Shown: positions 97-20,825 of the stretch, in pieces
Layout: each line of letters begins with the position of its first letter
Numbering within the stretch: position 1 is the first letter of the stretch
Assembly (NCBI GenBank): GCA_902786815.1
Contig: CADADV010000005.1
Coordinates: 1 to 64,000 of the forward strand
Reading direction: 5' to 3'
From: an uncultured Eubacteriales bacterium
Lineage (GTDB): Bacteria > Bacillota > Clostridia > Peptostreptococcales > Anaerovoracaceae
Length of the DNA stretch: 64,000 bases
Notes under the pieces: generated by a model
What the model saw: the letters and a program-made list of their open reading frames with translations, nothing else
Told to the model about the DNA's origin: nothing
Database searches by the model: none
Program-made: the position numbers and the translations under genes

Positions 97-237
97 AACG
101 GTTTTCCTCATTTGGGATTTTACCTCAGAAAAGGTGTCAAAAATCTGCGTTGTGATCTCTGTGTTAGTTTGGTCCATCCACCATTCAACGTCCATCGCTT
201 CTTTTCTTATTTCTGTAATCAATACAAACTGCTTCAT
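76..237 (-). CDS. Small unknown protein, 53 aa, possibly truncated by the element at its 3' end
   Basis: I do not recognise this protein. It starts MKQFVLITEIRKEAMDVEWW and ends in a basic tail (VRVRRY). The start codon overlaps the stop of the upstream gene by 4 bp (ATGA), and a strong ribosome binding site (GAGGGGG) lies 7 bases before it, so it looks translated and coupled to its neighbour. The last residues are encoded by the repeat-rich sequence that resembles an IS21 end, so the natural C-terminus may be lost. No signal peptide or membrane segment is seen. It is the last gene of the minus-strand island in this window. Confidence 0.55.
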   Translation of the reverse strand: MKQFVLITEIRKEAMDVEWWMDQTNTEITTQIFDTFSEVKSQMRKTVVRVRRY

Positions 238-533
238 GAAACAATCCCCCTCTTGAATATATATGTGTTTTCAATTACGGTCATTTCGCGCGAACCTTTC
301 GTATGATATTTTCCGCAAGGAACCACGAAAATCAAATCCCAGCCTTTTGCTGTAATTTCCGGAAGCGTTGACTCATATTCCACGCCGGACCCATCTCTGA
401 ACTTTGCGTGTTTTCTCAGTCCAAGTTCGTCGATCAAAACCTGTTCGGGTTCTCCTGTATAGTATAATTTCCCCTTTTTTGGGCAATATTTGAGCTCATG
501 GCTGTGATCGGTAAATTCAATGTAAATGGACAT
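234..533 (-). CDS. Unknown small island protein, 99 aa
   Basis: Not recognised. The protein is soluble and of mixed charge (MSIYIEFTDHSHELKYC at the start), with two cysteines and no signal peptide or membrane helix. A GTG codon nine bases upstream is in frame, but ATG at 533 is preferred because AGGGAG lies 8 bases before it. It follows the 128-aa gene after 23 bases and is followed by an overlapping 53-aa gene, so the three probably form one transcript driven from the dyad promoter at 972-1007. Its function is unknown; its position suggests an accessory part of the island. Confidence 0.65.
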   Translation of the reverse strand: MSIYIEFTDHSHELKYCPKKGKLYYTGEPEQVLIDELGLRKHAKFRDGSGVEYESTLPEITAKGWDLIFVVPCGKYHTKGSREMTVIENTYIFKRGIVS

Positions 534-556
534 TCTAATCACTCCCTTCTACCATG

Positions 557-943
557 TTAATCCCAATCCTCTATGTAAAACTGCAGCCTGTGAATACCCC
601 TGAATTCATATTGCATATCACCACAGTATTTCCACTTTGTGCCACTTGCTTCTTCAATGTTTTCTGTGTAAATACCCATGTCTCTCATGTAGTCTTCAAA
701 GGATGTATCGTATGCGGCATCGAACTTCTCCTTATCTACGGTGAGATCGTACAGATACATGTCGCTTTCGTGCCAGAAACATATTTCAATTACCTGGCCA
801 TCTTTTAATGTCGCATACTGTTTGCCGAGTTCACTGTAATCATCCTCCTTGGCAAGGTCTTCGACCTTCTCCATGGTTACGATGTTTTTGTTAAAATCGG
901 CAAAGATTGATTCGACTTTTCTATAAGTTTTCTCTTCGTTCAT
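557..943 (-). CDS. Unknown acidic island protein, 128 aa
   Basis: Not recognised. It is a soluble acidic protein rich in Asp, Glu and aromatic residues, with no membrane segment, signal peptide or cysteine cluster. The start is well supported by AGAAAGGAG 8 bases before the ATG. It is the first gene behind the shared dyad promoter at 972-1007, whose -10 box lies about 29 bases upstream of the start codon. The promoter makes it a separate transcription unit from the nuclease genes upstream while tying it to the same regulation. The small size and acidity would suit an inhibitor or adaptor role, but that is only speculation. Confidence 0.65.
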   Translation of the reverse strand: MNEEKTYRKVESIFADFNKNIVTMEKVEDLAKEDDYSELGKQYATLKDGQVIEICFWHESDMYLYDLTVDKEKFDAAYDTSFEDYMRDMGIYTENIEEASGTKWKYCGDMQYEFRGIHRLQFYIEDWD

Positions 944-971
944 TTACCCATCTCCTTTCTCTCACACCCTC

Positions 972-1007
972 ATTATACGAAATGGGTATGCGTCGAATTT
1001 GGAGCAT
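972..1007 (-). promoter_or_regulatory. Island promoter A: TATAAT box with upstream 18-bp dyad
   Basis: Read on the minus strand, a perfect TATAAT (972-977) is preceded by 11 bases and then the imperfect dyad TGCTCCAAATTCGACGCA (989-1006). The dyad sits where a -35 box would be, and no good TTGACA is present. The same arrangement recurs at 7748-7782 and 10018-10052. It drives the 128-aa gene. The dyad could bind a repressor, or an activator that replaces the -35 contact. Confidence 0.7.
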
Positions 1008-1014
1008 TGCGGGA

Positions 1015-1902
1015 TTACCAAGTATATTCTTTAGCTATTCTTTTATAAACTGCTGTTTCTGCATCCTTGTTTTCGATATGTTGGAAAACGCCAACGAACT
1101 CAACAATGCGGCTGTTAAATTCATTTCTTGTTTGCATAAACACAACCCGTATTTCCCCATCACTAACTGGCCCAATTATCAGTTTTTCGGTGCGTTTATC
1201 AGAGTACTCTTCGATTGTATCCATTTTGTCATTCATTACATTTGTCCATTTGGGGTCTCCAATTCTTTTTCCATTCACTTCAATTGTTAATTTCGGTACC
1301 CATAAATGGTATCCACCTGGTAACAGTTTTGTTTTATAATAGCACCTGCGGTGCTTCTTTTCTGGATCTTCTCCTTTTATTCTATTCCAGATTTCACTGA
1401 AGTTTTTATATCCAATATTATCTTCAACACATATCCTTTTGCGGTTAAACGCCTTGTCCTTAAGAGATTCATTACTTTCCCATTTTAGTGGAGTCGGCAA
1501 AGAATCAATTTTATTCTTAATATCTTTGACAATCTCATCTATTTGTTTATTTACTGATTCCAAGTCATAACTCTCATCAATTTCTACATGTTCTTCTTTG
1601 CAATCTATAGCATTAAGAATGTCTGAAGCCCGTTTAATATCATTTTCACTATATTCCGGTCTCTTATGAGCAGGCTCATCGATTTCAACACCATAATTGA
1701 TTTCCGGAAAATATAAATCTAATAAATAATACTTTTTTTCTCCTTCCTTATAGACTATTTGTTGTGTAACCGGTCTTAATTCATAGTTGTTTACTTTACT
1801 ATAGATAGACGTAATTACATAGTTTTCATAAATTTTGTTTTGTGCTCTAGAAAACATTTTTGCCAAATATTCTAATTTGCTCTTGCTTATGGTATTTGCC
1901 AT
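1015..1902 (-). CDS. AbaSI-like PD-(D/E)XK nuclease with C-terminal recognition-like domain, 295 aa
   Basis: The N-terminal half contains LLDLYFPEINYGVEIDEPAH (about residues 60-79). This resembles the catalytic core of AbaSI/PvuRts1I-type, modification-dependent restriction endonucleases: D62 and the E73-x-D75-E76 cluster, followed by H79. The C-terminal half, ending in a segment like FVGVF...YKRIAKEY, looks like a separate domain that could read DNA. ATG at 1902 is chosen because AAAGGAG lies 6 bases before it; an in-frame TTG slightly upstream lacks such a site. It begins 12 bases after the DUF2779 gene, in the same transcript. The family match is from memory of the motif; the substrate is unknown. 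A role in cutting foreign or modified DNA is inference. Confidence 0.55.
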   Translation of the reverse strand: MANTISKSKLEYLAKMFSRAQNKIYENYVITSIYSKVNNYELRPVTQQIVYKEGEKKYYLLDLYFPEINYGVEIDEPAHKRPEYSENDIKRASDILNAIDCKEEHVEIDESYDLESVNKQIDEIVKDIKNKIDSLPTPLKWESNESLKDKAFNRKRICVEDNIGYKNFSEIWNRIKGEDPEKKHRRCYYKTKLLPGGYHLWVPKLTIEVNGKRIGDPKWTNVMNDKMDTIEEYSDKRTEKLIIGPVSDGEIRVVFMQTRNEFNSRIVEFVGVFQHIENKDAETAVYKRIAKEYTW

Positions 1903-1914
1903 TTTCAACTCCTT

Positions 1915-3393
1915 TCATTCACATATTTCCACCAACTTCTCCCATATCTTCACCATGGCGAAGGTATCCAACTCGCAGTACTTCAACAGATACCCGCGCC
2001 ATTCTTCCAGTTCGTCTGGGGGCATGTCGGTCATGCGCTTAAACGTATCCATGGCTTCACCGCCGTGATGGACGCCTTCAAGGTTGTGATAATCTAGAGC
2101 TGGATCATCCGGGAACAGGGCCGGCAGGACGTACTTGATGGAATAGGATCCCTGCATTTCACGGCAGTAGTAATGCTTTTTCTGGAAAGGGATCATCAGG
2201 TCCACAGTGTTATCATGAATGTTCATCAGATGATCCGCCAAGTCCGGGTACAGGGCTGCGAGGCTTTTGATCCTGCCTTTCTCAAAACCCATGTTGTAGG
2301 CCATGGTGCACACATCCAGCGGAATATCCTCACAAAGCCTCTCAGCAAGTTCCCGCCGAGGGTCCGTACCCGGATACGCCAGGTACTCCTTGTGCTTTAG
2401 CTCACCGCCTTCACTCTCTATGTAGTGCAGCGAGTACTGGAACGGAATCTGCTCGTATGGTTTTGCATTATCATAGAGCGGAATCGCCGGCATGAAGGTC
2501 TCGAAGTCCAGGAAGTACAGCGGGTATGTGAGCGTATCAAGAAATGCCTTGATACATTCCTCGTGGATCTCCGGCGGCAGATTGTGAATCTCGAAATCGA
2601 CCTGCTTCAGGTACTTCTCCCCAATCGCCTTACGATCCCAAAGATCCTCAAATGAAACGTGCCCTATGCAAAGGCATTCTATTTTCTTTTTCAGCCGCAG
2701 ACCGGCAACATCGAAGACATTCGGTCTTGGAAGTTCCCGCGTGCAGTACCCAAAGAAGCCACAATCATAGGGATCGAAACATTGCAGCCCGATTTCCTTC
2801 TCCGGATCATCTGTCTGTTTCATATATTCATTGAGGAATGCGATTCTCTCTTCAACGTCTTCATACAGGTCGCTTGCGATTTTGGTCACATCCTCAATCA
2901 CAAACAACTCCTGCAGATCCAGTTCTCCATGACGTACATATTCATTGTTGATATGAACCACACAGGCCCGCTCAATGGTATATCCCAGTTTACTGAGGAC
3001 ATAGCACTGATACGCTACATCGTGATAATAGATCTCCTTTACTTCCGTAGAGCTTTTCACTTCATAAAGTTCCACGTGTTTGTCCCCAAGGTTCTTCAGA
3101 ATATCCACGCTGCAGAAGGCCCCATGATAAGAAAAGGAGGCCTCCGTAATGATTTTCGTGCCTCCATCCATCAGCCGTGTTGTTTCATCGATCATGCTCT
3201 GCAGATGCCGGTCAAACGGCACTTCCACAAAATCACCGAACAATCCCATCGCGAGATCGCCGACTTCGTTGCCGGTCTGCAGAACCGCTTCATTCATAAC
3301 GGAATCATCGAATTCTTCCGGCTTGTTTGTTCTGAGCCAAAGCATCTTCGGACATTGTACTGCCGAGCAGTACCTGGATTTGCTTAAATACAT
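1915..3393 (-). CDS. DUF2779 protein: RecB/Cas4-like nuclease joined to a DnaQ-like exonuclease domain, 492 aa
   Basis: Two nuclease modules can be seen. The first (about 1-220) has a Cas4/RecB pattern: CPKMLW with C14, GNEVG (42-46), D97, E111-V-K113 and Q129, followed by spaced cysteines C205, C211 and C217 that could hold an iron-sulfur cluster with C14. The second (about 290-490, DUF2779) has DEDD exonuclease features: D296-F-E298 in LDFETF, YNMGFEKG (366-373), D398, and YCELDT with D476. The protein is therefore probably a DNA- or RNA-processing enzyme with two active sites. It lies between the DFYGK-repeat gene and the AbaSI-like nuclease in one minus-strand transcript. Domain identity is fairly sure; the biological role is not. 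Confidence 0.75.
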   Translation of the reverse strand: MYLSKSRYCSAVQCPKMLWLRTNKPEEFDDSVMNEAVLQTGNEVGDLAMGLFGDFVEVPFDRHLQSMIDETTRLMDGGTKIITEASFSYHGAFCSVDILKNLGDKHVELYEVKSSTEVKEIYYHDVAYQCYVLSKLGYTIERACVVHINNEYVRHGELDLQELFVIEDVTKIASDLYEDVEERIAFLNEYMKQTDDPEKEIGLQCFDPYDCGFFGYCTRELPRPNVFDVAGLRLKKKIECLCIGHVSFEDLWDRKAIGEKYLKQVDFEIHNLPPEIHEECIKAFLDTLTYPLYFLDFETFMPAIPLYDNAKPYEQIPFQYSLHYIESEGGELKHKEYLAYPGTDPRRELAERLCEDIPLDVCTMAYNMGFEKGRIKSLAALYPDLADHLMNIHDNTVDLMIPFQKKHYYCREMQGSYSIKYVLPALFPDDPALDYHNLEGVHHGGEAMDTFKRMTDMPPDELEEWRGYLLKYCELDTFAMVKIWEKLVEICE

Positions 3394-3408
3394 ATGTCGA
3401 CTTCCCTT

Positions 3409-3633
3409 TTATCTGTTGTTCGCCTCATTCTCAGCCGCCGCCTCTGCGATTAGCCCTGTCAGAGTATTTCCGTTTGAAACCACTTTTCCATAAAAATCAC
3501 GGGTCTTATCATCGTTTTTGTTATAGGTGCCCAAAATCTTGCCATAAAAATCTTCGGCTACGATTCGGTCTCCCTGGTCGTCCAGCCTGCCCAGAATCTT
3601 TCCGTAGAAATCCTTAATCAATTCCTTTGCCAT
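3409..3633 (-). CDS. Small protein with three DFYGK repeats, 74 aa
   Basis: The sequence holds three copies of a short motif: DFYGKILG at residues 8-15, DFYGKILG at 28-35 and DFYGKVVS at 46-53. The intervals are 20 and 18 residues, with acidic, Asn/Asp-rich turns between. This suggests three small beta-strand or hairpin units, perhaps a peptide scaffold or a binding decoy. I know of no function. ATG at 3633 is chosen because AAAGGGA stands 9 bases upstream; an in-frame ATG at 3642 overlaps that site. It lies 15 bases before the DUF2779 gene and just after the PDDEXK_4 gene, so it is co-transcribed with two nucleases. Confidence 0.65.
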   Translation of the reverse strand: MAKELIKDFYGKILGRLDDQGDRIVAEDFYGKILGTYNKNDDKTRDFYGKVVSNGNTLTGLIAEAAAENEANNR

Positions 3634-3650
3634 AATTATCATTCCCTTTC

Positions 3651-5006
3651 TTACTTTTGGTCAGTTTTGTTGAAACCATCTTGTAACTTTTGTTCTATGT
3701 CATGTATCCAGTCAATCACATCAACAACGATCCTTTTGATTACTTCTTCTTTCCTATTATCATTTTCTACTATTTCTCCCGGCTTTTTCACGTCTACTGT
3801 TTTTGATTCTACGCACCACCATCGATATTTATCCCTCTCAGATGCGGGCTTTAAGACTTTCGCTACAGCTTCATGCTCATAGGCTGTCTGTTCGCTGATA
3901 TTGTCACCAGCTAATGTCAAGCAAAATCTGACTTTCTCATTATTCATAAGATCTTTTAGAATTAACTCATAAGAATATGTGTCTTGTGTTCCCCAGGAAC
4001 AGTCCTTTGCTTCATTTTGATGAATGATTTTGTCCATGTAATCACTTGTGAATCTGACATAGCTTATCTCGCTTCTATTATTGGCACATTTTAAGCCAGG
4101 AAGTTGGTTGGGAAGTTCATTGCGCAACGCTTCAGCAAGTATTCTCCTAGGATCATCTCTATTTTCAAGTATCAATTGTATTTCCCGCTTGCGCCTTTTA
4201 TATAGTTCTTCACAAATGTCATGCACGTCCTTATCTTTTTCCTTCCCTTTGATTGTCTTTGCAATTAATTCGATTGCTTTGCTATGCTTGCTATATATTA
4301 AATTACAGTTTTGTACTAACGCGTCATCGTCATTAAATCTTTTTATCACTTCACAATAATCACGAATGATTTGCTTTGCCTCATCAGGCACATTTCCCCA
4401 CTTTCTGCTGTTGTCCTCATCTATTATCGTTTGAATCGCTTCTAAAACATCTTTATATGAAAGAACACTCCAATATTTTTCGTCCTGTGGTGCATCATCA
4501 CGTGCCGAAAGATAAACAAACATCACAGAGTATTCTTTTTCCGGATAATCATTAATAATAGCTTGTCTGTAATCATGTGTCTGTCCCTTATTCTCGATTG
4601 AATCAATTTTATTTTCAATAACAATTAGATGCTTTTTCCCTTTATTGGGGGTGTCATATTCTAAGAACAGGTCCAATCTCCCCCTTTTACCTGGTTGTCG
4701 CTCAACGTTCTTCTCTCTTACAGGCGAACCACAATAATAATCGATACCGGCCCATTCAATAACGTCATAACCTTTATTTGAGTTATATTTAATAATTGTT
4801 CGTACTATCTCACGAACAAGAGCGTCTCCAAGGTTATGACTAGCATTTGCATCAAGTAGCCATGCTAAAATGTCGCTATGTCTATTCTCATCTCTGTCAA
4901 CACCTAGAATATCAAATACATTAACATCGTTAATGAATGGTCCAAGAGTATCAAGGCAAGATTCATCGAGTAGTAGTTGTCTTAATTCATTGGTTTGTTT
5001 TTCCAT
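3651..5006 (-). CDS. PD-(D/E)XK nuclease family protein (PDDEXK_4 type), 451 aa
   Basis: The N-terminus carries the signature of this family: ENRHSDILAWLLD (40-52) with the HNLGD segment after it, then RGRLDLFLEY (108-117) with D112, and LIVIENKID (127-135) giving the E131-x-K133 catalytic pair. The rest (about 150-451) is mixed helical sequence rich in Lys and Glu with no motif I recognise, perhaps a target-recognition part. ATG at 5006 is chosen because AGGTGAG lies 5 bases before it; an in-frame GTG at 5015 is possible. The DNA looks AT-richer by eye than the neighbouring chromosome. Members of this family often sit in defence islands, which fits the neighbours, but the target is unknown. 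Confidence 0.75.
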   Translation of the reverse strand: MEKQTNELRQLLLDESCLDTLGPFINDVNVFDILGVDRDENRHSDILAWLLDANASHNLGDALVREIVRTIIKYNSNKGYDVIEWAGIDYYCGSPVREKNVERQPGKRGRLDLFLEYDTPNKGKKHLIVIENKIDSIENKGQTHDYRQAIINDYPEKEYSVMFVYLSARDDAPQDEKYWSVLSYKDVLEAIQTIIDEDNSRKWGNVPDEAKQIIRDYCEVIKRFNDDDALVQNCNLIYSKHSKAIELIAKTIKGKEKDKDVHDICEELYKRRKREIQLILENRDDPRRILAEALRNELPNQLPGLKCANNRSEISYVRFTSDYMDKIIHQNEAKDCSWGTQDTYSYELILKDLMNNEKVRFCLTLAGDNISEQTAYEHEAVAKVLKPASERDKYRWWCVESKTVDVKKPGEIVENDNRKEEVIKRIVVDVIDWIHDIEQKLQDGFNKTDQK

Positions 5007-5020
5007 TTTGCTCACCTGTG

Positions 5021-5560
5021 CTATCTTCTCTCTTTTCCTTTAAATCCTTCTTTCGTAATAATTATATACCCGTACTTTGCCGTATTACTATACTTTCTGT
5101 CTATTTCATAATGCTGATTGCACACCAATGTGAACCAATGGTCTTCAAACAGGTTCTCCAATTTGTCAAAGGCCTCATCCTGCACGACTATCTCGAATGT
5201 TGGATCTGCGCTTGCCCACACGTATGGCCTTTGCAACTTAGGTTTTATTTTGGTGACACCCAGCAAATACAGCATGATACTGTTTTTCATTTCCGGACTG
5301 CAATACCAATGATAATGATTGTCCCTCAGCCACTCCGTTAATTCAAACAGAACGGCAACTTCATAGAGCCTATATGTCTGGCTCATTTCAGTAAGCTCTG
5401 CAGCAAGCTGCTCCGCTGCAGGCTCTGGAACATCATTTCCGTATTCTTCCGCCTGCCGCTTTACAAGTAAACTGAACAGACAAATATAGACATCTCTGGG
5501 CCGGATCATATCTAATGAGAAATCTGTGTATTCTATGAATTGATCAAAGATTGTTTTCAT
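5021..5560 (-). CDS. Unknown island protein, 179 aa
   Basis: Not recognised. It is a soluble protein with a helical N-terminal half (FDQFIEYTDFSLDMIRPRDV) and a more beta-like, aromatic C-terminal half ending in a basic tail (GFKGKERR). No catalytic motif, signal peptide or membrane helix is evident. Its ATG lies inside the last 17 bases of the upstream 288-aa gene in another frame, so translation of the two is probably coupled and the products may act together. It is followed 14 bases later by the PDDEXK_4 nuclease gene. Confidence 0.65.
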   Translation of the reverse strand: MKTIFDQFIEYTDFSLDMIRPRDVYICLFSLLVKRQAEEYGNDVPEPAAEQLAAELTEMSQTYRLYEVAVLFELTEWLRDNHYHWYCSPEMKNSIMLYLLGVTKIKPKLQRPYVWASADPTFEIVVQDEAFDKLENLFEDHWFTLVCNQHYEIDRKYSNTAKYGYIIITKEGFKGKERR

Positions 5561-6410
5561 AGTTTGCCACCTCCACGCTCTCCCCTATTTCACGATTATC
5601 AGAAAACGAGAGTGTTTCCATTCGGTACAATGGGGAAATCATAACCATCATGCCTTCAGGGTATATGGATCCGTGTTTCACTGCTCCGGTCGCCCATTCA
5701 CCTGCTTCATTTCTGTATAAAGCCTGTACGCCGCAGCAGTCGCTTCCTACTTCAAGAAGTTCTATTGTTTGTGGTTTTGCAAATGGCATGCTGTTGGCAA
5801 TTACAACATCGCCCGGCTGAAATGGGATATCAATATTGAGATGTATAGTATCCCACGAATAGCGATCATCATAACAAAAGCCGCAGAGTCCAATCTCATC
5901 CATCTCTGTATTTTTTTCAAAATAGCAGACCTGATCGGCGATGAGATAATAAGTATATGGATTCCGGAATCCTCCTTTGTCATTGGGTTCATATAAATCC
6001 AGAACACCCCAACTTCGTGTGTCGAAACGATGTTCCCAAAGGTCTTCGTTTTCTGGAACGTCATACCAGTCTCTAGCGAGATTCAGCTTGACCTGCTCCA
6101 GACTTTTGCATGGTCCGATACCCCATTCGTTCGGCTCAAGCTGTCCATCTATCATCTCGTAACCGTACATGGAAAAATACAGAAACTGACTATCGTCCAG
6201 GTTTAGTGCATCGAGAGCAGCTTTCATATCCTGATAGCTTTGCTCATCAACGTCTTTCATAAGTTCTGCTTTTCTTGTAAGCGGAATCGGTGCGCCTCTT
6301 ATGATATCCTCTGTTTGGGCCTGTGTGAGTCCTGCACCATGTTCTATGAGGTATGTCTGCATTTCCTCAGATTCAAAACAGGTCGTTATGATTTCCTCGA
6401 TATTTGCCAT
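5544..6410 (-). CDS. Unknown island protein, 288 aa
   Basis: Not recognised. The first 80 residues are helical (IEEIITTCFESEEMQTYLIE), and the remainder is rich in beta-type sequence with a PFQPGDVVIANS segment (about 199-210), which resembles the entry strand of a small barrel. There are several cysteines but no clear metal site. No signal peptide is present. The ATG lies 16 bases after the stop of the AAA/M41 gene. The 3' end overlaps the next gene, so both are likely expressed together from the promoter at 7748-7782. Confidence 0.65.
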   Translation of the reverse strand: MANIEEIITTCFESEEMQTYLIEHGAGLTQAQTEDIIRGAPIPLTRKAELMKDVDEQSYQDMKAALDALNLDDSQFLYFSMYGYEMIDGQLEPNEWGIGPCKSLEQVKLNLARDWYDVPENEDLWEHRFDTRSWGVLDLYEPNDKGGFRNPYTYYLIADQVCYFEKNTEMDEIGLCGFCYDDRYSWDTIHLNIDIPFQPGDVVIANSMPFAKPQTIELLEVGSDCCGVQALYRNEAGEWATGAVKHGSIYPEGMMVMISPLYRMETLSFSDNREIGESVEVANYENNL

Positions 6411-6426
6411 ATTTACAACACCCCCT

Positions 6427-7704
6427 CTAACAAACTACTTCCGTTTTAACAAGTCCGCATTCTGCCTTGATTCTTTGAACATCGGAAAACAGGAGACACT
6501 GCTTTTGCACGAGTTCTTCGGCCACTCGTTCGAGCAGTTCGGAGTTCCTCAGGAGAATGTCTCTAACTTCAATCGTATATCTTTCCAATTCGGCATTGAC
6601 GGCTGATTCCATTCTCAGATAATAACTTTCGGAGGTTGCCAGTTTGTGTTGATCCAGCAATGAAAACCCTCTTGTAGCGTTATACATCAAACCATCGGTT
6701 ATGGCGCCCACTGCCTCTCTCAAATCTTTACTGCATCCACCCGCAATTCCGCTGAAACGCATTTCAGTTGCCACCTTTCCAGCAAGAGAAATCATAATAT
6801 GATGAGGTCTTCTTATTTCAGTTGACTTTCTTTGAACAAAACCGCCGCACTCGCCTCTGCTTTCCGGCCGTATTGACGCAAAGCCAATGCTTTCCGGCAT
6901 CAGGCTTTCTGCCACAACAATATGTGCCGCTTCATGAAGTGCTTCTTTTTCAATTTCGATTTCTTTAACTTTGATCTCGTGCTCACTTGGCCCGCCATAA
7001 TACCTTCTTAAAGTGGCTTCTACGAGATGTCGCATTTCAATTTTTTCGCATTGTTCATACCCTGCTATGATTGCCGCTTCATTTAAGACCATCTTTATCT
7101 CTGCGCTGGAGCTGGTGTTCACCATTTTGTAGATGTCCTGCACGTCAATATTCCCGGCTACTGGTTTATCTTCCAAATAGTGCTGTAAAATATTGATTGC
7201 CTCGTCGTCGGTGGGCGAGCCCATATGGATTTTGCGGTCGAACCTACCGGCTCGCGTTAGGGATCTTGGCAGCTTTCTGATATTGTTCACTGTTGCCATC
7301 ACCAATACGTTTTTTGACTGCAGCTCGTCAATACATGTTTGAACAGTCACGTATTCCTCAGCATCGCTATGATCTTCATCCTCATTCGCGAACTTGTCCA
7401 TGTCATCAAGCAGGATGATAGCAGGCGCATTGGCTTTTGCAAAATCAAATGCTTTGACAATGTCATCGACGATTTCCCCATCCTTTTTCGTTCTGCGCAC
7501 TGTAATTGTCTTCACTCCAGCTTCGTCCATCAACGCGGTTGCCATCATCGTTTTCCCCATGCCGGGATTTCCATACAACAGAATGCCTTTCGGAATCTGT
7601 GCCCCTAACGCGGCGTATCTGTCGGGATTCTTCAGCATATCCACGATCTGCCGAAGTTCCAGTTTGATGCTCTCGTACCCAATTACCTTATCGAAATCTC
7701 CCAT
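6427..7704 (-). CDS. Soluble FtsH-like AAA+ ATPase with M41 metallopeptidase domain, 425 aa
   Basis: This is an ATP-dependent protease of the FtsH type without membrane helices. The AAA+ module starts at residue 1 and has Walker A GNPGMGKT (45-52), Walker B IILLDD (96-101) and the second-region-of-homology arginines in TRAGRFDR (150-157). The C-terminal peptidase has the zinc site HEAAH (257-261) and a third ligand candidate, D327, in SKDLREA. Classical FtsH is over 600 residues with two N-terminal membrane segments, which are absent here, so the enzyme should act in the cytosol. The start at 7704 follows GGAGG by 7 bases. It is the first gene of the seven-gene transcript behind island promoter B. 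Confidence 0.85.
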   Translation of the reverse strand: MGDFDKVIGYESIKLELRQIVDMLKNPDRYAALGAQIPKGILLYGNPGMGKTMMATALMDEAGVKTITVRRTKKDGEIVDDIVKAFDFAKANAPAIILLDDMDKFANEDEDHSDAEEYVTVQTCIDELQSKNVLVMATVNNIRKLPRSLTRAGRFDRKIHMGSPTDDEAINILQHYLEDKPVAGNIDVQDIYKMVNTSSSAEIKMVLNEAAIIAGYEQCEKIEMRHLVEATLRRYYGGPSEHEIKVKEIEIEKEALHEAAHIVVAESLMPESIGFASIRPESRGECGGFVQRKSTEIRRPHHIMISLAGKVATEMRFSGIAGGCSKDLREAVGAITDGLMYNATRGFSLLDQHKLATSESYYLRMESAVNAELERYTIEVRDILLRNSELLERVAEELVQKQCLLFSDVQRIKAECGLVKTEVVC

Positions 7705-7747
7705 ACACATACCTCCAATCTAAGCAATTTATCATTCGTCAATTACT

Positions 7748-7782
7748 ATTATGCACATAGGCGTGCACCAAATTTGGGGCAT
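7748..7782 (-). promoter_or_regulatory. Island promoter B: CATAAT box with near-perfect 18-bp dyad
   Basis: On the minus strand the -10-like CATAAT (7748-7753) is preceded at the same distance as in the other two copies by TGCCCCAAATTTGGTGCA (7764-7781). Its outer TGC/GCA and inner CCAAATTTGG are exactly symmetric, making it the best-formed dyad of the three. It begins 2 bases after the stop codon of the helicase-polymerase fusion gene and should drive the AAA/M41 gene and the six genes behind it. Confidence 0.65.
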
Positions 7783-7783
7783 G

Positions 7784-9982
7784 CTATTCAAGGCGAAAGA
7801 CCTCCTGTCTGATCATCTGTGCAATATGTGCGCGTGGAAACAAATACATTACTTGTTCGCAGAAATCTATAACCCACTCTGCGACTCCTTGTTCCCTCAT
7901 CTTCGTGGCCTGCTCTTCCGTAAGATGTCCCCCCATCATCACACGTTTAGTTATTTGGTATGCTTCTTTCCGTTCAAGACCTACACCCACCAAATATAAA
8001 AACAAATCGTCTCTGGAACCTATCATATCGGCAAGCGGAAGGCTGCCGTCTATAACCATCTGTTTTGCGTCACTTTCCCACGGTATCGAAGAATGCGCCA
8101 TGCTTAGAGCGGTGATCAGTTCCTCATAAGTGCGTACTTTTAACGCCTTTATTAATGGATCAGCTATTTTTAGCTGAGTCCATATCTTCGGAACGTCTTT
8201 ATCCGACCCCGCCTCGTTGAAATTAACTTTCTCTTCGTTATAAAACAAGTTATACCGCACCCGCTCCATCTTTTTTACACCTATCAAACTGATTTGTGGG
8301 AAGATATCATGAAACATACGATCCGGATACTTGTCCATATCGACGCCTTTTGTTTCAAGCGGATCTTTCTCAGGAAACGCACCATCCTTCATAAGGTAAA
8401 TACGGATCCATCTTGCTTGCTTGCTGCCTCCAAGCGGATATGACAGACAGCGATAGTCGGGAAGTTCACGGAACAAGAATGCCTGCGCAAAGTAAATGAA
8501 CGCCATCGAGCACTGAATCTCCAAGGCCGGTTCTTTCCCCTCATATTCTTCCCTTGTCATTTCAAACGGAAGATTCACACCGCCATATTCGGGTTCCATC
8601 GGATTCACGTCAGAAAAGCCGCTCGTATATGCGATCAGCGAAGAGGTTATCGTCCCTCTGAAAAAGGTCACGTGATGAAGACGCTTGGCTTCTTTCGCAA
8701 TCAGGCTTGCGATCAGGTAGTATGCTGAATGCTTATTTCTTGCAACAACTTTCAATTCGTGGGCAAGTCGATCTTTCACTGCTTCTGGGGGTTTATCTCC
8801 AAACCGTTCCTTCAGCCCCTTTTGACAAATGCTATTCAGCTTCTGATCCGCGTCCGGCATTTCAAGCCTTTGTATATAATTTGGAGCGTTCCCTTTTCGA
8901 TCGCTCTTATCTATGAATCTTAAAATGTTTTCATCCCACATCACCCTAACCGTTCCCGTCACACCGTTTTTTTGCTTGGCAATAATGACTTCGCATTCAT
9001 CTGGTTTGTCTGTCTCTTCGTTGTAGTATTCATCTCTGTATAGGAAGATAACCATATCCACATACTTTTCGATTGCATCGGTATATAGAAAATCCGAAAT
9101 AACAGGTCTGTGCTCAGCCCTAATCTCAGGTCTGCGTGAAAGCTGCGAAATTACCAATACGGGACATTCCAATTCTATTGCAAGCATTTTTAGTTTCGAT
9201 GTTATTGCGACAATTTCTTGCTCTCTTGTCTTGAATCGGTCATCACACGCATTCAAAAGTTGCAAATAATCAACGATCACTAAATCAAGTCTTTTTTCAC
9301 CCTTGAGCTCCAGACTCTTTTTTCTTATTTCCGTTACGTTTGCGAACGGCTTGTCATCAATGATGATATTCATCTTAGAAAGTCTTTTGGCTGCATTATT
9401 GATAACGCATTCTTCTTCTGCGTCGAGTTTTCCACTGCGAATCTTTTGAAGGCTAATCTGGGATTCCATAGCCAGCGGCCTCTGTTCTGCCTGTTCCTTG
9501 GACATCTCCAAACTAAAAAACATTACGGACGCATCGTTGTTTGCTGCCGCGTTCAGGGCCAATGACAGCGCAAAAGCCGTTTTGCCCATTGCGGGTCTTG
9601 CCGCCAACAAAATTAGATCGGACTTTTGAAGGCCCCCTGTCAGCTTATCGAGTTCATAAAACCCTGTCGTAACTCCTGTAAGTCCGCTCCCCGCCTTTGC
9701 TTCTTCATTTTTCAAATCTCTCAACATCTTTGTTCTAAACGGATGCCTCATTCTTCTGATCAGGATGCGAAATATCCCATCTTCCGTCTTTTTACCAGAC
9801 ACGACATTCATAACATGAATGATTTCATTTTCCTCAAAATCCTCCAGCATTTTCTCAAAAGCCTTCTCGAACTCAGCCGCCTTCTCCGGCTTCACATTGA
9901 CCGGCTCGCCCAGAACAAGTTCAACGATCTGCTTTTTCACATCATCACTGATTGCAATCATGTTGGTAGTTTTCTTATTCAT
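7784..9982 (-). CDS. DnaB-type helicase fused to a catalytically degenerate PolC-like region, 732 aa
   Basis: Residues about 98-355 form a replicative helicase RecA-like domain: Walker A ARPAMGKT (128-135), Walker B VIVDYLQLL (235-243) and LYRDEYY (314-320). It is very close to the chromosomal DnaB at 59333-60718, but the full DnaB N-terminal domain is missing. The position of the DnaB KQR arginine finger reads KQK (336-338). Residues about 380-732 align by eye with the palm/fingers part of PolC: LKERFGD, RGTITSS (442-448), VNPMEPEYGG, IGSRDDLFLYL (654-664) and YLFPRAH (713-719). The catalytic PDID stretch of PolC is replaced by PALEIQCS (485-492), and the third Asp by S565 in ISLIG. Polymerase activity is therefore unlikely. 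The start follows AAGGAGG by 5 bases. Promoter C drives it. Confidence 0.8.
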   Translation of the reverse strand: MNKKTTNMIAISDDVKKQIVELVLGEPVNVKPEKAAEFEKAFEKMLEDFEENEIIHVMNVVSGKKTEDGIFRILIRRMRHPFRTKMLRDLKNEEAKAGSGLTGVTTGFYELDKLTGGLQKSDLILLAARPAMGKTAFALSLALNAAANNDASVMFFSLEMSKEQAEQRPLAMESQISLQKIRSGKLDAEEECVINNAAKRLSKMNIIIDDKPFANVTEIRKKSLELKGEKRLDLVIVDYLQLLNACDDRFKTREQEIVAITSKLKMLAIELECPVLVISQLSRRPEIRAEHRPVISDFLYTDAIEKYVDMVIFLYRDEYYNEETDKPDECEVIIAKQKNGVTGTVRVMWDENILRFIDKSDRKGNAPNYIQRLEMPDADQKLNSICQKGLKERFGDKPPEAVKDRLAHELKVVARNKHSAYYLIASLIAKEAKRLHHVTFFRGTITSSLIAYTSGFSDVNPMEPEYGGVNLPFEMTREEYEGKEPALEIQCSMAFIYFAQAFLFRELPDYRCLSYPLGGSKQARWIRIYLMKDGAFPEKDPLETKGVDMDKYPDRMFHDIFPQISLIGVKKMERVRYNLFYNEEKVNFNEAGSDKDVPKIWTQLKIADPLIKALKVRTYEELITALSMAHSSIPWESDAKQMVIDGSLPLADMIGSRDDLFLYLVGVGLERKEAYQITKRVMMGGHLTEEQATKMREQGVAEWVIDFCEQVMYLFPRAHIAQMIRQEVFRLE

Positions 9983-10017
9983 AACAACCTCCTTGTTCAA
10001 TTACTTCAACAATTCAA

Positions 10018-10052
10018 ATTATACGAATTGGTATGTGTCGAATTTGGAGCAT
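10018..10052 (-). promoter_or_regulatory. Island promoter C: TATAAT box with 18-bp dyad
   Basis: Read on the minus strand, TATAAT (10018-10023) is preceded by TGCTCCAAATTCGACACA (10034-10051), matching promoter A in nearly every position. The start codon of the helicase-polymerase fusion lies about 35 bases downstream. The high conservation of both boxes and of the spacing suggests that the three transcription units are controlled by one regulator, which I do not see in the window. Confidence 0.7.
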
Positions 10053-10136
10053 ACTCGGTACCGCTTGTTGAAATCTGTGGGAGTAATGTGAGAGTTATGT
10101 GGGAATAAAGCCCTTTTGGGGCCCTTTTTCAAAAAG

Positions 10137-10170
10137 AAAAAAGCTTGAAACCGTTGAAATTTCAAGCTTT
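10137..10170 (-). terminator. Terminator behind tRNA-Arg
   Basis: On the minus strand the tRNA is followed by the arms AAGCTTGAAA and TTTCAAGCTT (10-bp perfect stem) and then a T-run. This is a standard Rho-independent terminator that separates the tRNA from the island. Confidence 0.8.
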
Positions 10171-13755: not shown

Positions 13756-14565
13756 TCAAAGATAATCACTGTATCTGTCAAACCTGCTGCAAAGGCTATC
13801 CGTACTGTGGCTGTCGCTGGACAGGATGAACCTGCCGCCGTGAGCCGCGATGTAGTCCACGATCGGCTTCGACGGATAGGTATCGGTCCGGTAGCCCCGT
13901 GTCATGCCGCCGGTGTTGATTTCAAAAAGCGCGACGGTCTGCAGCAGCTTGTCGACTGCCTTCTGCCAGGCCGCGATATAACGCGGATGGCCTTCGTCAA
14001 AGAGCGCGCCCTGCTTGCCGCCTTCTCCGCCGGCGTTGTATTTGGTGATCAGATCGAGGTGTCCGATGATGTCTGCGCCGGTCATCTCGACAACACGGCT
14101 TACGGTTTCGTAATACCGCTCGATCATGGCGTACACATCACCGCCGAAGTACTTCTCGGCGATTTCCAGCCAGATCTCTTTCGTTTCATCGATGACGACG
14201 ATGCCGCCCCCTTCCGGGCTGCAGTCGATGTAGTGGACAGAGCCGATGACATAGTCCCAGTCTCTTGTGGGTGTCCCGGCCAGGCAGTCCTGCTCGACGC
14301 CGCAGAGGATCTCCATCCGGCCTGCGTACTCCGCAGCCAGTGCGCGGACCTCCGCTTCATAAGCGTCCTGATCGGACAGCAGCATGCAGTAGCTCTCGTC
14401 ATAAGGGGTGTAGCCGTGACCGGAAAAACCGTAGACCTTCAGCCCCTGGGCGAACGCTGCAGCCGCCATCTCCGCCGCGGTGTTTCCTCCATCGCAGTAT
14501 GATGTGTGGGTGTGGAAATCCGCCAGGCTGTTTTTGTTTAATTCCAAGTATCTGCTGAAGTTCAT
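13756..14565 (-). CDS. hisJ: Histidinol-phosphatase, PHP family, 269 aa
   Basis: This enzyme removes phosphate from histidinol phosphate in histidine synthesis. The metal-binding motifs of the PHP fold are all visible: [11 protein letters not shown] near the N-terminus, GHGYTP, GVEQD, GSVHY, GHLDL and SSDSH at the end. It is the last gene of the his operon and overlaps the end of hisIE by 4 bases (ATGA). PHP proteins of this type are the Gram-positive histidinol phosphatases and are unrelated to the HisB-N phosphatase of enterics, which agrees with the short HisB in this operon. Confidence 0.93.
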
Positions 14566-15275
14566 TTCGTCATCTTCTCCTGCTTGACCTTGTGGTCGAT
14601 CACATGGCGTGACGCCAGCTCCTCTGTGATGTCATCCAGCGAGATCCCCGCTTCCACCATGAGCACCATCACGTGGTACGCCAGGTCCGCGATCTCGTAA
14701 ATGGTCTCTGCTTTGTCTTCTGCCTTTGCCGCGATGATGACCTCTGTCGACTCCTCTCCCACCTTCTTCAGGATCTTATCCAGTCCCTTCTCGAAGAGGT
14801 ATGTCGTATAGGAGCCCTCCTTCTTTTCGGTCTTCCTTCCGCGGATCAGTTCCATCAATCCTTCATAGGAAAATGTATCGTCGATAGGCGATGCGCCTTC
14901 TGCCGCAAGGGATTCGGCTGCTTCTTCTGCAGCGGATTCGTCCGCTTCCAGCATCGGATAGTCGAAGCACGACCAGGTCCCCAGGTGGCAGGCCGGACCG
15001 TCCGGCTTCACTTTCACCACCAGCGCGTCCCGGTCGCAGTCCGCCGTGATGGACACGATGTGCTGGTAGTTGCCGCTGGTTTCCCCCTTGAGCCAAAGCT
15101 CCTGCCGTGAGCGGCTCCAGAAACAGGTCAGTTTCTTTTCCAGCGAGATCCGCAGGCTCTCTTCATTCATATATGCCAGAGTCAGCACCTCGTTCGTGTC
15201 CACATCGACAACGATCGCCGGCACCAGCCCCTTCTCGTCAAATTTCACGTCTTCTATTTTTACCATTTCTCCCAT
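14562..15275 (-). CDS. hisIE: Bifunctional phosphoribosyl-AMP cyclohydrolase / phosphoribosyl-ATP pyrophosphatase, 237 aa
   Basis: It catalyses steps two and three of histidine synthesis. The N-terminal HisI domain (about 5-115) has the zinc/substrate segments [26 protein letters not shown] and [10 protein letters not shown] short acidic, Ala/Glu-rich linker follows (about 112-130). The HisE domain (about 133-225) has [16 protein letters not shown] and [17 protein letters not shown] precedes the first ATG. It follows hisF after 68 bases and overlaps hisJ by 4 bases. Confidence 0.95.
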
Positions 15276-15343
15276 CGCCTGTCTCCTTATATCTATCTCC
15301 TTATGTCTGTCTCTCCACTTCTATCTTCCTGTTGCTTACAAGG

Positions 15344-16102
15344 CTAGCGTCTTGCCGGTATTCCTGCTTTTGCCATTGCCTCTTTCAGGTCCGCGATCTC
15401 CACTTCTTTGAAATGGAAGATGCTCGCTGCCAGCCCCGCGTCGATGTCGGGGATCTCGGTGAACAGTTCGATGAAGTCTTCGATGCAGCCAGCCCCGCCG
15501 GAGGCGATGACCGGTACGTTGACCGCGTCGCAGACTGCTTTCAGCAGCGGAATGTCGAAGCCTTGTTTCACGCCGTCCGTATCGATGGAGTTGACGACGA
15601 CCTCCCCGGCGCCTGCGTCGACGCAGCGTTTGATCCAGTCGATGGCCTCCATGCCGGTGTTCTCCCGGGCGCCCTTGGCGAAGACCCGGTAGACCCCGTC
15701 GATCAGGGAAACGTCCACGGACAGGACGACGCACTGGTCGCCGTAGAGTCTGGCCGCTTCACCGATGATGGACGGATTGCGGATGGCTCCTGAGTTGACG
15801 CTGACTTTGTCTGCGCCGCACTTGAGCACCCGGTCGAAGTCTTCGATGGTGCTGATGCCGCCGCCGACTGTCAGCGGGATGAAAACGTTGGACGCTGTCT
15901 CGGTCAGGATCTCCGTGAACAGCTTCCGTCCGTCGCTGGACGCGGTGATATCGTAGAACACCAACTCGTCCGCGCCGGCGTCTGTATAGAACTTCGCCAG
16001 TTCCACCGGCGATGAAACATCGTTCAGATCCTTGAACTTGGTTCCTTTGACGACCCTGCCGTCTTTTACATCCAGACAGGGGATGATTCTCTTTGTGATC
16101 AT
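15344..16102 (-). CDS. hisF: Imidazole glycerol phosphate synthase, cyclase subunit, 252 aa
   Basis: This beta/alpha-barrel partner of HisH uses ammonia to make imidazole glycerol phosphate and AICAR. The start IPCLDVKDGRVVKG carries the catalytic D11; GGGIST, SVNSGAI and SVDVSLIDG form the phosphate-binding and catalytic loops. Length and motifs are those of a normal HisF. It begins 10 bases after hisA. Confidence 0.96.
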   Translation of the reverse strand: MITKRIIPCLDVKDGRVVKGTKFKDLNDVSSPVELAKFYTDAGADELVFYDITASSDGRKLFTEILTETASNVFIPLTVGGGISTIEDFDRVLKCGADKVSVNSGAIRNPSIIGEAARLYGDQCVVLSVDVSLIDGVYRVFAKGARENTGMEAIDWIKRCVDAGAGEVVVNSIDTDGVKQGFDIPLLKAVCDAVNVPVIASGGAGCIEDFIELFTEIPDIDAGLAASIFHFKEVEIADLKEAMAKAGIPARR

Positions 16103-16112
16103 ATTGCCTCCT

Positions 16113-16835
16113 CTATCGCGCAGCCTCTGCCGCCGCGATTGCTTCTTTCAGGTCAATGGCTCCTGTGTAGTACGCCTTGCCGATGATGGCGCCGTAAAGT
16201 CCCCGGGCGGCCAGCCGCTTCACATCGTCAATGGACGATACACCGCCGGACGCCACCAGCTGCATTCCGAGCCGTGCGGACAGTTCCTCGTAAAGCCCAT
16301 GGTTCGTGCCTTTCATGGCGCCGTCCTTGGAAATGTCCGTCACGATGATGGTCGTCACGCCCAGCGCCTGCATCTGTTCACAGAAGTCAACCGCCGTCAG
16401 CTGGGTCTTCTCCGTCCAGCCCTTGATCGCCACATAGCCGTCCTTCAGGTCGATGCCGACGGCGATCTTCTCTCCGTACGCCGCTACAGCTTCCTCCAGA
16501 AACGCCCGGTCTGTCACCGCCGCTGTTCCCAGGATCACCCGGTCGATGCCGGCGTCCATGTAGCGGCGGATCACATCCATGCTTCGGATGCCGCCGCCGA
16601 TCTCGCAAAAGCACCCGCTGGCTTCCTTGATCCGGCATACCGTATCGAAGTTCGGCGTGGTGCCGTCCTTGGCGCCCTCCAGATCGACGATGTGTATGTA
16701 CTCTGCTCCTGCCGCCGCGAAGTCTCTTCCGATCTGCGGCGGATCGTCGCTGTATATGGTCATGTCCTCGTACCTGCCGCGCAAAAGCCGTACCGCTTTG
16801 CCGTCAAACAGGTCGATGGCAGGGAATATCTTCAT
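16113..16835 (-). CDS. hisA: ProFAR isomerase, 240 aa
   Basis: This beta/alpha-barrel isomerase opens the ribose of ProFAR to give PRFAR, the substrate of HisF/HisH. The N-terminal FPAIDLFDGKAVRLLRG contains the catalytic Asp of the first half, and TDISKDGAMKG contains that of the second half. GGGIRS is the phosphate loop. It lies between hisH (18 bases upstream) and hisF, and it resembles HisF in sequence, as expected from their shared ancestry. Confidence 0.96.
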   Translation of the reverse strand: MKIFPAIDLFDGKAVRLLRGRYEDMTIYSDDPPQIGRDFAAAGAEYIHIVDLEGAKDGTTPNFDTVCRIKEASGCFCEIGGGIRSMDVIRRYMDAGIDRVILGTAAVTDRAFLEEAVAAYGEKIAVGIDLKDGYVAIKGWTEKTQLTAVDFCEQMQALGVTTIIVTDISKDGAMKGTNHGLYEELSARLGMQLVASGGVSSIDDVKRLAARGLYGAIIGKAYYTGAIDLKEAIAAAEAAR

Positions 16836-16853
16836 TCGTATGTGCCTCCTATT

Positions 16854-17477
16854 CTACAGTTCGCAGAACGCCTGCAGGATCTTCAGTCCGACAGCGCCGC
16901 TCTTTTCGGGGTGGAACTGGCATCCGTAGACATTGCCGTCGGCAACAGCCGCCGTCAGCTCCGCTCCGTATTCGGTCACAGCAATCGTGCTGTCCGCACA
17001 GTCTGCCGCGTAGTAGGAATGTACGAAGTAAACGTGATCCCCTTCTTTGATGTACTTGAACAGAGGCTCTGCGCCTTCTGCCGCACGGCCCCGGAATTCG
17101 AGAGCGTTCCAGCCGATGTGCGGGATCTTATAAGAGTCCGGTGCCACGCCCTTGATAGGCACGACATTTCCTTTGATGAGGCCAAGGCCTTCATGCTCGC
17201 CGTACTCATAGCTTTTCTCCAGAAGAAGCTGCATGCCGAGGCAGATGCCCATCAGGGGCTTTCCTGCTTTTGCCTGGGCTGTTACGATGTCCGCCATTCC
17301 GGACTCGCGCAGTTTCTTCGCCGCGTCCTCATAGGCGCCGACGCCCGGCAGAATGATCTGGTCTGCCGCTTCGATCAGCGCAGGATCCGCTGTGACGACA
17401 GCCTCCTGCCCGATGTATTTGCATGAACTCTGCAGGGAAAACAGATTCCCCACGCCGTAATCAATGATCGCTATCAC
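16854..17477 (-). CDS. hisH: Imidazole glycerol phosphate synthase, glutaminase subunit, 207 aa
   Basis: This class I glutamine amidotransferase supplies ammonia to HisF. The catalytic cysteine is C79 in GICLGMQLL, and the His/Glu pair lies in CQFHPEKSG (about 185-193). PGVGAY (44-49) forms the oxyanion strand. Its ATG overlaps the last base of hisB, so the two genes are translationally coupled. Confidence 0.96.
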   Translation of the reverse strand: MIAIIDYGVGNLFSLQSSCKYIGQEAVVTADPALIEAADQIILPGVGAYEDAAKKLRESGMADIVTAQAKAGKPLMGICLGMQLLLEKSYEYGEHEGLGLIKGNVVPIKGVAPDSYKIPHIGWNALEFRGRAAEGAEPLFKYIKEGDHVYFVHSYYAADCADSTIAVTEYGAELTAAVADGNVYGCQFHPEKSGAVGLKILQAFCEL

Positions 17478-18064
17478 TATAGAACTCCTTTCGTGGACGG
17501 TATTTCATCTGCAAAAGCTTCCTCGACTCTGACTGCCTGCCGGGCGGACCGTGCCGCCGACTTGAATGCGCCCTCGATGATGTGGTGGGAATTGGTCCCG
17601 GCGAGTTTGCGGATATGCAGATTGCACGCCGCGCTTCTGGCAAAAGCCATCCAGAACTCTTCCACCAGCTCCGTGTCGAAGGTCCCGACCTTCGCCGTCG
17701 GGATGTCCAGATCGAACCCCAGATAACATCTGCCGGAAAAGTCGATGGCCGTCAGGATGAGGGACTCGTCCATGGGGATGATGGCGCTGCCGTAGCGGTT
17801 GATGCCCTTCTTGTCCCCAAGGGCCTGCGAGAAGGCATCCCCCAGGGCGATGCCGATGTCCTCGACAGTATGGTGATCATCCACATACGTGTCTCCCTCG
17901 CACTTCACAGTCAGGTCGAACCGGCCGTGTTTGGCAAACAGGGTCAGCATGTGATCGAGAAATCCCACTCCCGTGTCGATGTTTGACTCGCCTTTGCCGT
18001 CGAGCTCGAGCTTCAGCGCGATGTCCGTCTCTGCTGTTTTTCTGTTGATCTCTGCGTTTCTCAT
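17477..18064 (-). CDS. hisB: Imidazoleglycerol-phosphate dehydratase, 195 aa
   Basis: This manganese enzyme dehydrates imidazole glycerol phosphate. The metal-binding motifs HMLTLFAKH, DHHTVEDIGIALG and SHHIIEGAFKS are intact. The protein is monofunctional and lacks the N-terminal phosphatase of enteric HisB; hisJ in the same operon covers that step. It overlaps hisC by 4 bases and meets hisH end to start. Confidence 0.96.
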   Translation of the reverse strand: MRNAEINRKTAETDIALKLELDGKGESNIDTGVGFLDHMLTLFAKHGRFDLTVKCEGDTYVDDHHTVEDIGIALGDAFSQALGDKKGINRYGSAIIPMDESLILTAIDFSGRCYLGFDLDIPTAKVGTFDTELVEEFWMAFARSAACNLHIRKLAGTNSHHIIEGAFKSAARSARQAVRVEEAFADEIPSTKGVL

Positions 18065-20788: not shown

Positions 20789-20803
20789 TCTTGTGCTCCC
20801 TAG

Positions 20804-20825
20804 CGGGGCGGGCGCGCCCGCCCCG
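20804..20825. repeat. Perfect GC-only palindrome between hisD and hisZ
   Basis: Twenty-two consecutive G/C bases form an exact palindrome centred on GCGCGC. In the his transcript it would fold into a very stable stem immediately after the hisD stop. There is no following T-run, so it looks more like an RNA-processing or mRNA-stability element than a terminator. Confidence 0.7.

Follow-up and report, generated by a model that had tools for sequence, protein, structure and literature searches.

The stretch of DNA analyzed here (the window) comprises 64,000 nucleotides, positions 1 to 64,000 of contig CADADV010000005.1 from an uncultured Eubacteriales bacterium of the family Anaerovoracaceae (assembly GCA_902786815.1). 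Its minus strand encodes, at 7784..9982, a protein in which a DnaB-type helicase motor without the N-terminal domain is joined to a palm-fingers piece of the polymerase PolC that has lost the catalytic DxD. The genes that follow code for a soluble FtsH-like AAA+ ATPase with an M41 metalloprotease site (AAA-M41) and a probable second dead PolC palm; these two are the best clue to the fusion and were missing from the initial annotation, which had been made from the sequence alone. We tentatively prefer to read the fusion as bait for foreign replication-takeover proteins, a mimic of the replisome wired to a protease. In a broader form of this reading, held slightly more cautiously still, gut Firmicutes would repeatedly convert copies of their replicative polymerase and helicase to noncatalytic replisome mimics wired to a soluble FtsH-type protease, and the fusion would unite the helicase and polymerase mimics in one chain, within an undescribed module of immunity or replication control that is coupled to a protease.

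Domain architecture of the fusion protein

The fusion gene is a single open frame of 738 codons on the minus strand. The ATG at 9982 is preceded by AAGGAGG, making the 732-residue protein the likely product. The DnaB_C motor, the PolC palm and the PolC fingers follow one another in this order:

7784..9982 (−), DnaB_C–dead PolC fusion gene, 732 aa; ATG at 9982, alternative TTG at 10000 adding 6 aa
8912..9676 (−), C-terminal motor of DnaB with intact Walker A (GKT) and Walker B, residues 103-357
8963..8980 (−), AKQKNG with Lys at the arginine-finger position (AKQRSG in the host), residues 335-340; assigned by motif
8561..8845 (−), PolC palm start with the RGTITSS loop, residues 380-474
8516..8530 (−), PALEI in place of PDIDL (catalytic DxD), residues 485-489
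8279..8293 (−), ISLIG in place of LDILG (third Asp), residues 564-568; low-confidence region
7808..8158 (−), PolC fingers, residues 609-725

Pfam, phmmer, profile alignment and motifs all agreed on the architecture that the initial annotation had proposed. Pfam placed DnaB_C at residues 103-357 (E 1.5e-86) and DNA_pol3_alpha at residues 380-474 (E 1.7e-15), phmmer matched the PolC structure 3f2b to residues 609-725 (E 5.9e-30), and a profile built from four intact PolCs aligned collinearly with residues 361-732 (344 columns, E 6.5e-26). The translation contains LKERFGD as well as RGTITSS (442-448), VNPMEPEY (459-466), SRDDLFLYL (656-664) and LFPRAH (714-719), and the chain stops 13 residues past the last of these.

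The polymerase part has lost its catalytic site and part of its structure

Alignment with the host and other PolCs revealed PALE at residues 485-488 in place of PDID, so that the catalytic DxD reads AxE. In the PolC of Enterococcus faecium, D972 and D974, which we equated with the DxD by motif, are catalytic, and the D972A+D974A variant is without polymerase activity (PMC12592400). The third catalytic Asp of the fusion is probably replaced by Ser; this assignment is less certain, because residues 508-601 (positions 148-241 of the model described below) have predicted local distance difference test (pLDDT) values under 50. The claim that all three catalytic Asp residues had been lost therefore stands for the DxD, with the qualifications that its second position is Glu, leaving one acidic group in the site, and that Ser at the third position is less secure.

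The Zn insert of PolC is deleted, and the thumb-bearing span from one catalytic motif to the other amounts to 77 residues compared with 123 in three intact PolCs. Thus, the fusion does not contain a palm/fingers region that was merely point-mutated, which corrects the initial annotation. The PHP, exonuclease and C-terminal parts of PolC were absent by Pfam and alignment. The clamp site of PolC lies in the C-terminal region, and nothing was found in favor of the clamp binding that had been suggested.

A model of residues 361-732 predicted with AF2 had a predicted template modeling (pTM) score of 0.71, with most of the palm start and the fingers confident. In a Foldseek search, all 13 Protein Data Bank (PDB) matches at E ≤ 1e-3 were Pol III alpha, PolC ranking first. 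The predicted structure of the C-terminal part thus resembles C-family polymerases, as the initial annotation had anticipated; the alignment underlying the model contained intact PolCs, so that the model is not independent of PolC. Against the NCBIfam PolC model, the fusion scored 135.4 (cutoff 873).

The DnaB motor and the possibility of a poison subunit

Walker A (GKTAF, 133-137) and Walker B (VIVDYLQLL, 235-243) are intact in the motor. Its closeness to the host DnaB of the same window was confirmed, with 54% identity over residues 81-360, and the identity to the DnaBs found in the genus was 52-58% (best 59%). In the final DnaB tree, from which six rows under half filled were left out, a common clade of the motor with the genus DnaB was not rejected (p-AU 0.574), a placement that is not thereby proven. 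The score against the NCBIfam DnaB equivalog was 318.9 (cutoff 385.25). With the NCBIfam cutoffs missed, an ordinary DnaB or PolC was ruled out. The reported change of the arginine finger from KQR to KQK was likewise found, as AKQKNG in the fusion versus AKQRSG in the host DnaB of the window. An arginine finger of DnaB (R446 in Helicobacter pylori) has been described (PMC8421360); the position in the fusion was equated with it by motif and not residue by residue. The DnaB N-terminal domain was not found in the fusion by Pfam at E ≤ 0.1.

These features bear on the main rival to the bait reading, namely, that the fusion is a poison subunit. Its motor would join host or phage helicase rings, or it would take the seat of the polymerase, and stall the fork, AAA-M41 keeping its level low until infection disturbs the protease. 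Kept Walker motifs together with Lys at the arginine-finger position, the similarity of the motor to the genus DnaBs with a common clade not rejected, and the protease gene only 73 bp downstream are all in line with such a role, which accounts for the motor better than the bait reading does. However, the N-terminal domain and a linker part, which serve ring assembly in DnaB, are missing from the fusion; moreover, most relatives have no DnaB part, and a dead palm alone, as in the proteins P0005, L075 and Y introduced below, could not poison a helicase ring. We regard this alternative as doubtful, though worth keeping in view.

The fusion is rare

Searches outside this genome used the C-terminal half of the fusion and not the whole 732-residue protein, and the four taxon samples, each with this genome among its members, overlap. 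In 393 genomes of the order, nothing else matched at E ≤ 1e-23; two others in 391 genomes of the class and one in 398 genomes of the phylum lay in frames of 1232-1490 aa, i.e., full-length PolC. A common fusion was ruled out, the other matches in the order, class and phylum samples being normal PolC. Among the matches listed for 197 family genomes, the best other one had an E of 3.8e-22 and lay in a 1267-aa frame; one of 12 short-frame stretches taken from these listed matches, at the locus L061, proved to be a dead relative. A DnaB-PolC fusion was seen nowhere else in the family, order, class and phylum samples. Scans of viral_contigs with the C-terminal half and with a mixed alignment gave no relative, and when the same half was searched against phage and plasmid proteins, most of the matches listed were either annotated as PolC, DnaE or error-prone polymerases or were phage records without annotation.

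A related arrangement was found in a Lachnospiraceae contig (L088), whose end truncates a DnaB_C gene. This gene shares 4 bases with a dead PolC gene, and the latter overlaps the AAA-M41 frame. These are the same genes as in the window with DnaB_C and PolC unfused. The short DnaB piece of L088 (96 aa) is 35% identical to the window motor and 42% to the host DnaB; as it is no closer to the window motor, separate recruitment of DnaB fits better than one inherited fusion. The dead PolC of L088 (L088:289-2262) is itself fused to an ADP-ribosylglycohydrolase domain, and a gene for a calcineurin-like phosphatase is next in the locus. At a further locus, L110, a DnaB_C-only gene reading KNKHG lies three genes from AAA-M41. 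The expectation of a constant fusion among homologues was thus not borne out: it was seen only here, L088 has both genes adjacent, and most relatives have no DnaB alongside.

Occurrence in one genome only would suit an assembly error or a gene in decay that became fused by chance. Yet the 732 open codons with a ribosome-binding site, the predicted polymerase fold and the adjacency of the same two genes in L088 speak against either, and we consider both highly improbable.

The operon and its AAA-M41 protease

The features next to the fusion gene are as follows:

6427..7710 (−), soluble FtsH-like AAA+ ATPase with M41 metalloprotease site (HEAAH), 427 aa
5544..6410 (−), X, 288 aa, member of an orphan family seen repeatedly at AAA-M41 loci
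5021..5560 (−), Y, 179 aa, with PTFE for PDID; probably a second dead palm fragment of PolC
3651..5015 (−), PDDEXK_4 nuclease, PADLOC candidate PDC-S26, 454 aa
10172..10246 (−), tRNA-Arg (CCT) bounding the low-GC island

The fusion, AAA-M41, X, Y and the nuclease are encoded on the same strand and spaced like an operon: AAA-M41 follows the fusion after 73 bp and X follows AAA-M41 after 16 bp; X and Y overlap by 17 bp, and the nuclease gene begins 5 bp after Y. The GC content is 42% at 1-10150 versus 57% at 14001-22000; the window begins at the contig end.

The window protease matches positions 161-593 of the 598 in the FtsH profile with a score of 179.9 (cutoff 600), and the AAA-M41 group has a conserved motif of its own, DDxDKF...DAEE[FY]V. 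HExxH is present in all 76 AAA-M41 frames that are at least 400 aa long; the downstream Asp matches the G-x3-D pattern in 61 of them and is seen by eye in the other 15. No membrane segment was detected in these 76 proteins (top 19-residue hydropathy 1.73). By its sequence features, the protease is FtsH-derived but not FtsH. It was found in 7 of the 197 family genomes at E ≤ 1e-50. One AAA-M41 locus (L072:5584-9480) is, by eye, the end of a prophage that also encodes a WYL regulator and, as a separate protein, a DnaQ-like exonuclease.

Y is probably a second dead PolC palm. It matched a profile made solely from the other dead forms at E 6.8e-8 (best reversed decoy 0.14) and the intact-PolC profile at E 9.1e-3 (best reversed decoy 0.44), with weak matches in Pfam (E 0.06) and in a direct hhalign comparison with intact PolC (E 0.021). 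The best 15 PDB ranks obtained with its predicted model (pTM 0.77) were Pol III alpha chains at E values no better than 2.8e-3; the alignment held polymerase rows, so that this model is not fully independent.

X was detected in 1 of the 197 family genomes, and no relative was found on plasmids; at the locus L138, the dead palm carries an X-type domain in the same protein. By iterated profile, the X superfamily comprises 32 proteins near AAA-M41 genes at 19 of 85 loci, some of them with SLOG. Pfam gave a SLOG match at most for four stand-alone members (window X, L138_4, L100_3 and L129_11).

A restriction island adjoins the operon, with a modification-dependent restriction enzyme of the PvuRts1I-SRA type (1015-1908), a DUF2779/Cas4-like protein (1915-3393) and the PDC-S26 nuclease (3651-5015). 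Enzymes of the PvuRts1I-SRA type act on modified DNA. DUF2779 also seems, by eye, to lie near AAA-M41 in the locus L096.

Polymerase pieces recur at AAA-M41 loci

On plasmid pCY186 of Butyrivibrio proteoclasticus, a relative of AAA-M41 (37%) is encoded between P0004 and P0005. P0005 is a dead PolC piece of 332 aa with ends similar to those of the window fusion. P0004 (L026:23181-24623), annotated as hypothetical, is a dead DnaE-like palm/finger protein of 480 aa adjoining AAA-M41. Because the pCY186 protease sits between two dead pieces, we scanned one genome per species with the motif region specific to the AAA-M41 group (A3) and analyzed the best 80 loci of 241 relatives. Polymerase-like proteins were encoded at 10 of the 80 loci, and at 9 of the 80 they were extra PolC- or DnaE-derived copies, dead or intact. 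Dead palm or palm-finger pieces were found at L075, L088, L138 and L146, and L096 has fingers only at a contig edge. Longer PHP-PolCs are encoded at L098:914-3529, L099:5058-7589, L144:16684-18804 and L118:14069-16850, that of L118 being split into two frames and that of L144 cut by the locus end. At L129:2852-11068, a set of AAA-M41 genes is found shortly downstream of polC, which follows ispG (identities by eye); judged by its context, the polymerase of L129 is the chromosomal polC, and it was left out of the extra copies.

As a control, 22 other window proteins were searched against 84 loci; 19 of them matched none and three matched one. At the same 84 loci, host PolC matched 11, DnaE 10, DnaB 6 and DnaA 3, the PolC and DnaE counts including pCY186, L061, L129 and L148 and the DnaB and DnaA counts including pCY186. 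The sliding clamp and gyrase genes (by eye) were among the controls with no match; the window DnaA (by eye) and the second host DnaB copy were left out of the controls as replication queries. L148 was taken as a PHP match because, despite whole-protein matches, the polymerase profile gave only E 4.6e-2. In a rough Poisson estimate that assumes two such genes per 2000, 0.33 would be expected among 333 close neighbors versus six loci seen (P about 1e-6); as the loci are related and the rate is assumed, this value serves as a guide only.

A family search yielded seven further AAA-M41 loci. One of them encodes a 115-aa DnaB C-terminal fragment downstream of AAA-M41 (L179:7290-7637).

Loss of the catalytic site in truncated relatives

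The DxD was kept in none of nine truncated C-family palm pieces in which this site could be read; the first Asp was present in one and the second in none. This count left out L096 (fingers only) and the 89-aa DnaE piece L075_5. The residues at the two DxD positions are as follows:

Window fusion: A, E
Y: T, E
P0005: S, E
L075: S, E
L088: R, F
L138: K, Q
L061: D, E
L146: S, C
P0004 (by eye): S, C

The L138 piece is closer to DnaE than to PolC. P0005 and L061 keep the RG..SS loop and fingers motifs similar to RDD and LFPRAH of the fusion, and the P0005 and L075 frames stay open at 47% identity. A single clade of all dead forms was neither supported nor rejected (p-AU 0.196).

Both DxD Asp residues are kept in the longer proteins of L098, L099, L118, L144 and L129 and in a PolC-type polymerase of 914 aa and phage-like appearance encoded on the 188-kb plasmid p3 of Cetobacterium somerae (L022:3768-6512). 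The initial annotation had held that homologues with an intact acidic triad would count against its proposal; such homologues partly exist, as the acidic residues are intact in the proteins of L098, L099, L118 and L144 and in the Cetobacterium PolC, but in none of the nine truncated pieces. Its wider idea of a repurposed part is supported by the PolC-like predicted fold, the recurrence of dead relatives, several with similar ends, and the changed arginine-finger position; a block of the replisome, which it had also suggested, may still apply.

Retention of the RG..SS loop, RDD and LFPRAH in the fusion, with similar motifs in P0005 and L061, would also suit a sensor, whose dead palm-fingers pocket would still bind nucleotides or primer ends and alert AAA-M41 to DNA that is stalled or modified, the DnaB motor acting as DNA tracker. 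The neighboring PvuRts1I-SRA gene, of a type that acts on modified DNA, fits this picture. However, other finger residues (HGT, N) are changed, the thumb stretch has been shortened, and the losses go further in L088, L138 and L146; a sensor role appears unlikely.

A proposed bait for replication-takeover proteins

In the bait reading, the fusion would imitate the helicase-polymerase unit in pre-assembled form and would be retained because it binds other proteins, not to make DNA. Its targets would be proteins of phages or plasmids that take over or inhibit the replisome of the host, namely, loaders and inhibitors of helicase or polymerase; once these are bound to the mimic, AAA-M41 would unfold and degrade them, or signal through their capture. 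Loss of the active site would stop the bait from interfering through DNA synthesis. This would explain why the site and much of the thumb were shed and the palm start, fingers and motor kept, and also why varied replisome parts (PolC, DnaE, DnaB) occur at similar loci together with an intact protease site. Phages of Firmicutes do attack the helicase-loading step, as exemplified by 77ORF104 and DnaI (PMC4887207). The genomic context is a low-GC island beside a tRNA gene with PDC-S26, DUF2779 and PvuRts1I-type genes.

Several observations weigh against the bait. The protease does not need polymerase pieces: extra copies occur at only 9 of the 80 loci, and none was detected at the seven further AAA-M41 loci (E ≤ 0.01). 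The 80 loci belong mostly to related gut Clostridia and are not independent. Five of 81 AAA-M41 frames are under 400 aa, and three of those are without HExxH (L119 at a contig end, L093 and L143). Truncation and site loss are not strictly tied, since the acidic residues are intact in four longer relatives at AAA-M41 loci and also in the Cetobacterium PolC, although the latter stops shortly past the fingers; furthermore, the division into truncated and longer proteins behind the count of nine was defined after the sequences were seen. The genome that carries the dead relative L061 showed no AAA-M41 gene but only a match of FtsH length. Binding partners, a protease substrate and a role in defense are presumed in this reading.

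Other observations on the same side point to an alternative, according to which AAA-M41 is part of the region that serves replication or partition in large plasmids and phages, the dead pieces being decaying leftovers carried along with it. The pCY186 plasmid has replisome genes of its own near AAA-M41, as expected for a replication role: a DxD-intact PolC, DnaB and a DnaX-like gene lie within 10 kb, in addition to the two dead pieces. The PHP-PolCs of L098, L099, L144 and L118, short but longer than the dead pieces, have intact acidic residues, and the seven loci without a polymerase piece can be read in the same way. Leftovers should, however, lose long frames, yet those of P0005 and L075 remain open, and similar palm and finger pieces have been retained repeatedly. 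Apart from the fusion and the weak match of Y, Pfam scans of nine window proteins gave no family linked to replication or transfer. On balance, decaying remnants seem rather improbable.

If the bait reading were true, bacteria would maintain dead versions of enzymes essential for replication because of the surfaces that these offer for binding, akin to immune decoys, and would couple the decoy to a dedicated protease. The retained surfaces (palm start, fingers and DnaB motor) would then mark replisome sites contested by phages and plasmids in Gram-positive gut bacteria. Under the alternatives as well, repeated loss of the polymerase site beside a site-intact protease represents a testable and apparently undescribed use of C-family polymerase parts.

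Comparison with known systems

Scans with PADLOC, PHROGs, Pfam and NCBIfam returned models of parts only. A known defense protein was ruled out with PADLOC, which gave only a weak mad8 match to the ATPase (E 7.5e-5). Among the titles listed in literature searches, there was no description of a dead PolC, a DnaB-PolC fusion or an association of either with AAA-M41.

Like PolC-type Pol III alpha (3f2b, 9qpc/9qrl/9qrn), the fusion has the palm start and fingers in order and a PolC-like predicted fold; unlike it, the fusion is without the DxD, the Zn insert, the full thumb and the PHP, exonuclease and C-terminal parts, and the third Asp is probably lost. With DnaB it shares the C-terminal RecA-like motor, Walker A and B and, with the host protein, 54% identity; it differs in having no N-terminal domain match, Lys at the arginine-finger position and a polymerase piece attached. 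As defining features of both families were tested and found lacking, the fusion is neither PolC nor DnaB. The Cetobacterium phage-like PolC (914 aa) resembles the fusion in ending soon after the fingers, but its DxD and third Asp are intact, it carries about 500 residues of other N-terminal sequence, and it is encoded near a primase-helicase.

The window AAA-M41 shares with FtsH the AAA and M41 domains, HExxH and the downstream Asp, and it is distinguished by the missing membrane segment, a score below the cutoff and the motif of its own. Its AAA module also resembles the ATPase IetA/IteA of the anti-phage system IetAS (E 2.8e-25 and 3.8e-21 in two scans), but the window ATPase scored 75.6 against a cutoff of 510, and it carries its own protease as an M41 domain; the subtilase partner of IetAS was not found among the nine window proteins scanned with Pfam. 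The nearest printed idea known to us to a dead replisome mimic coupled to a protease is the decoy/guard principle.

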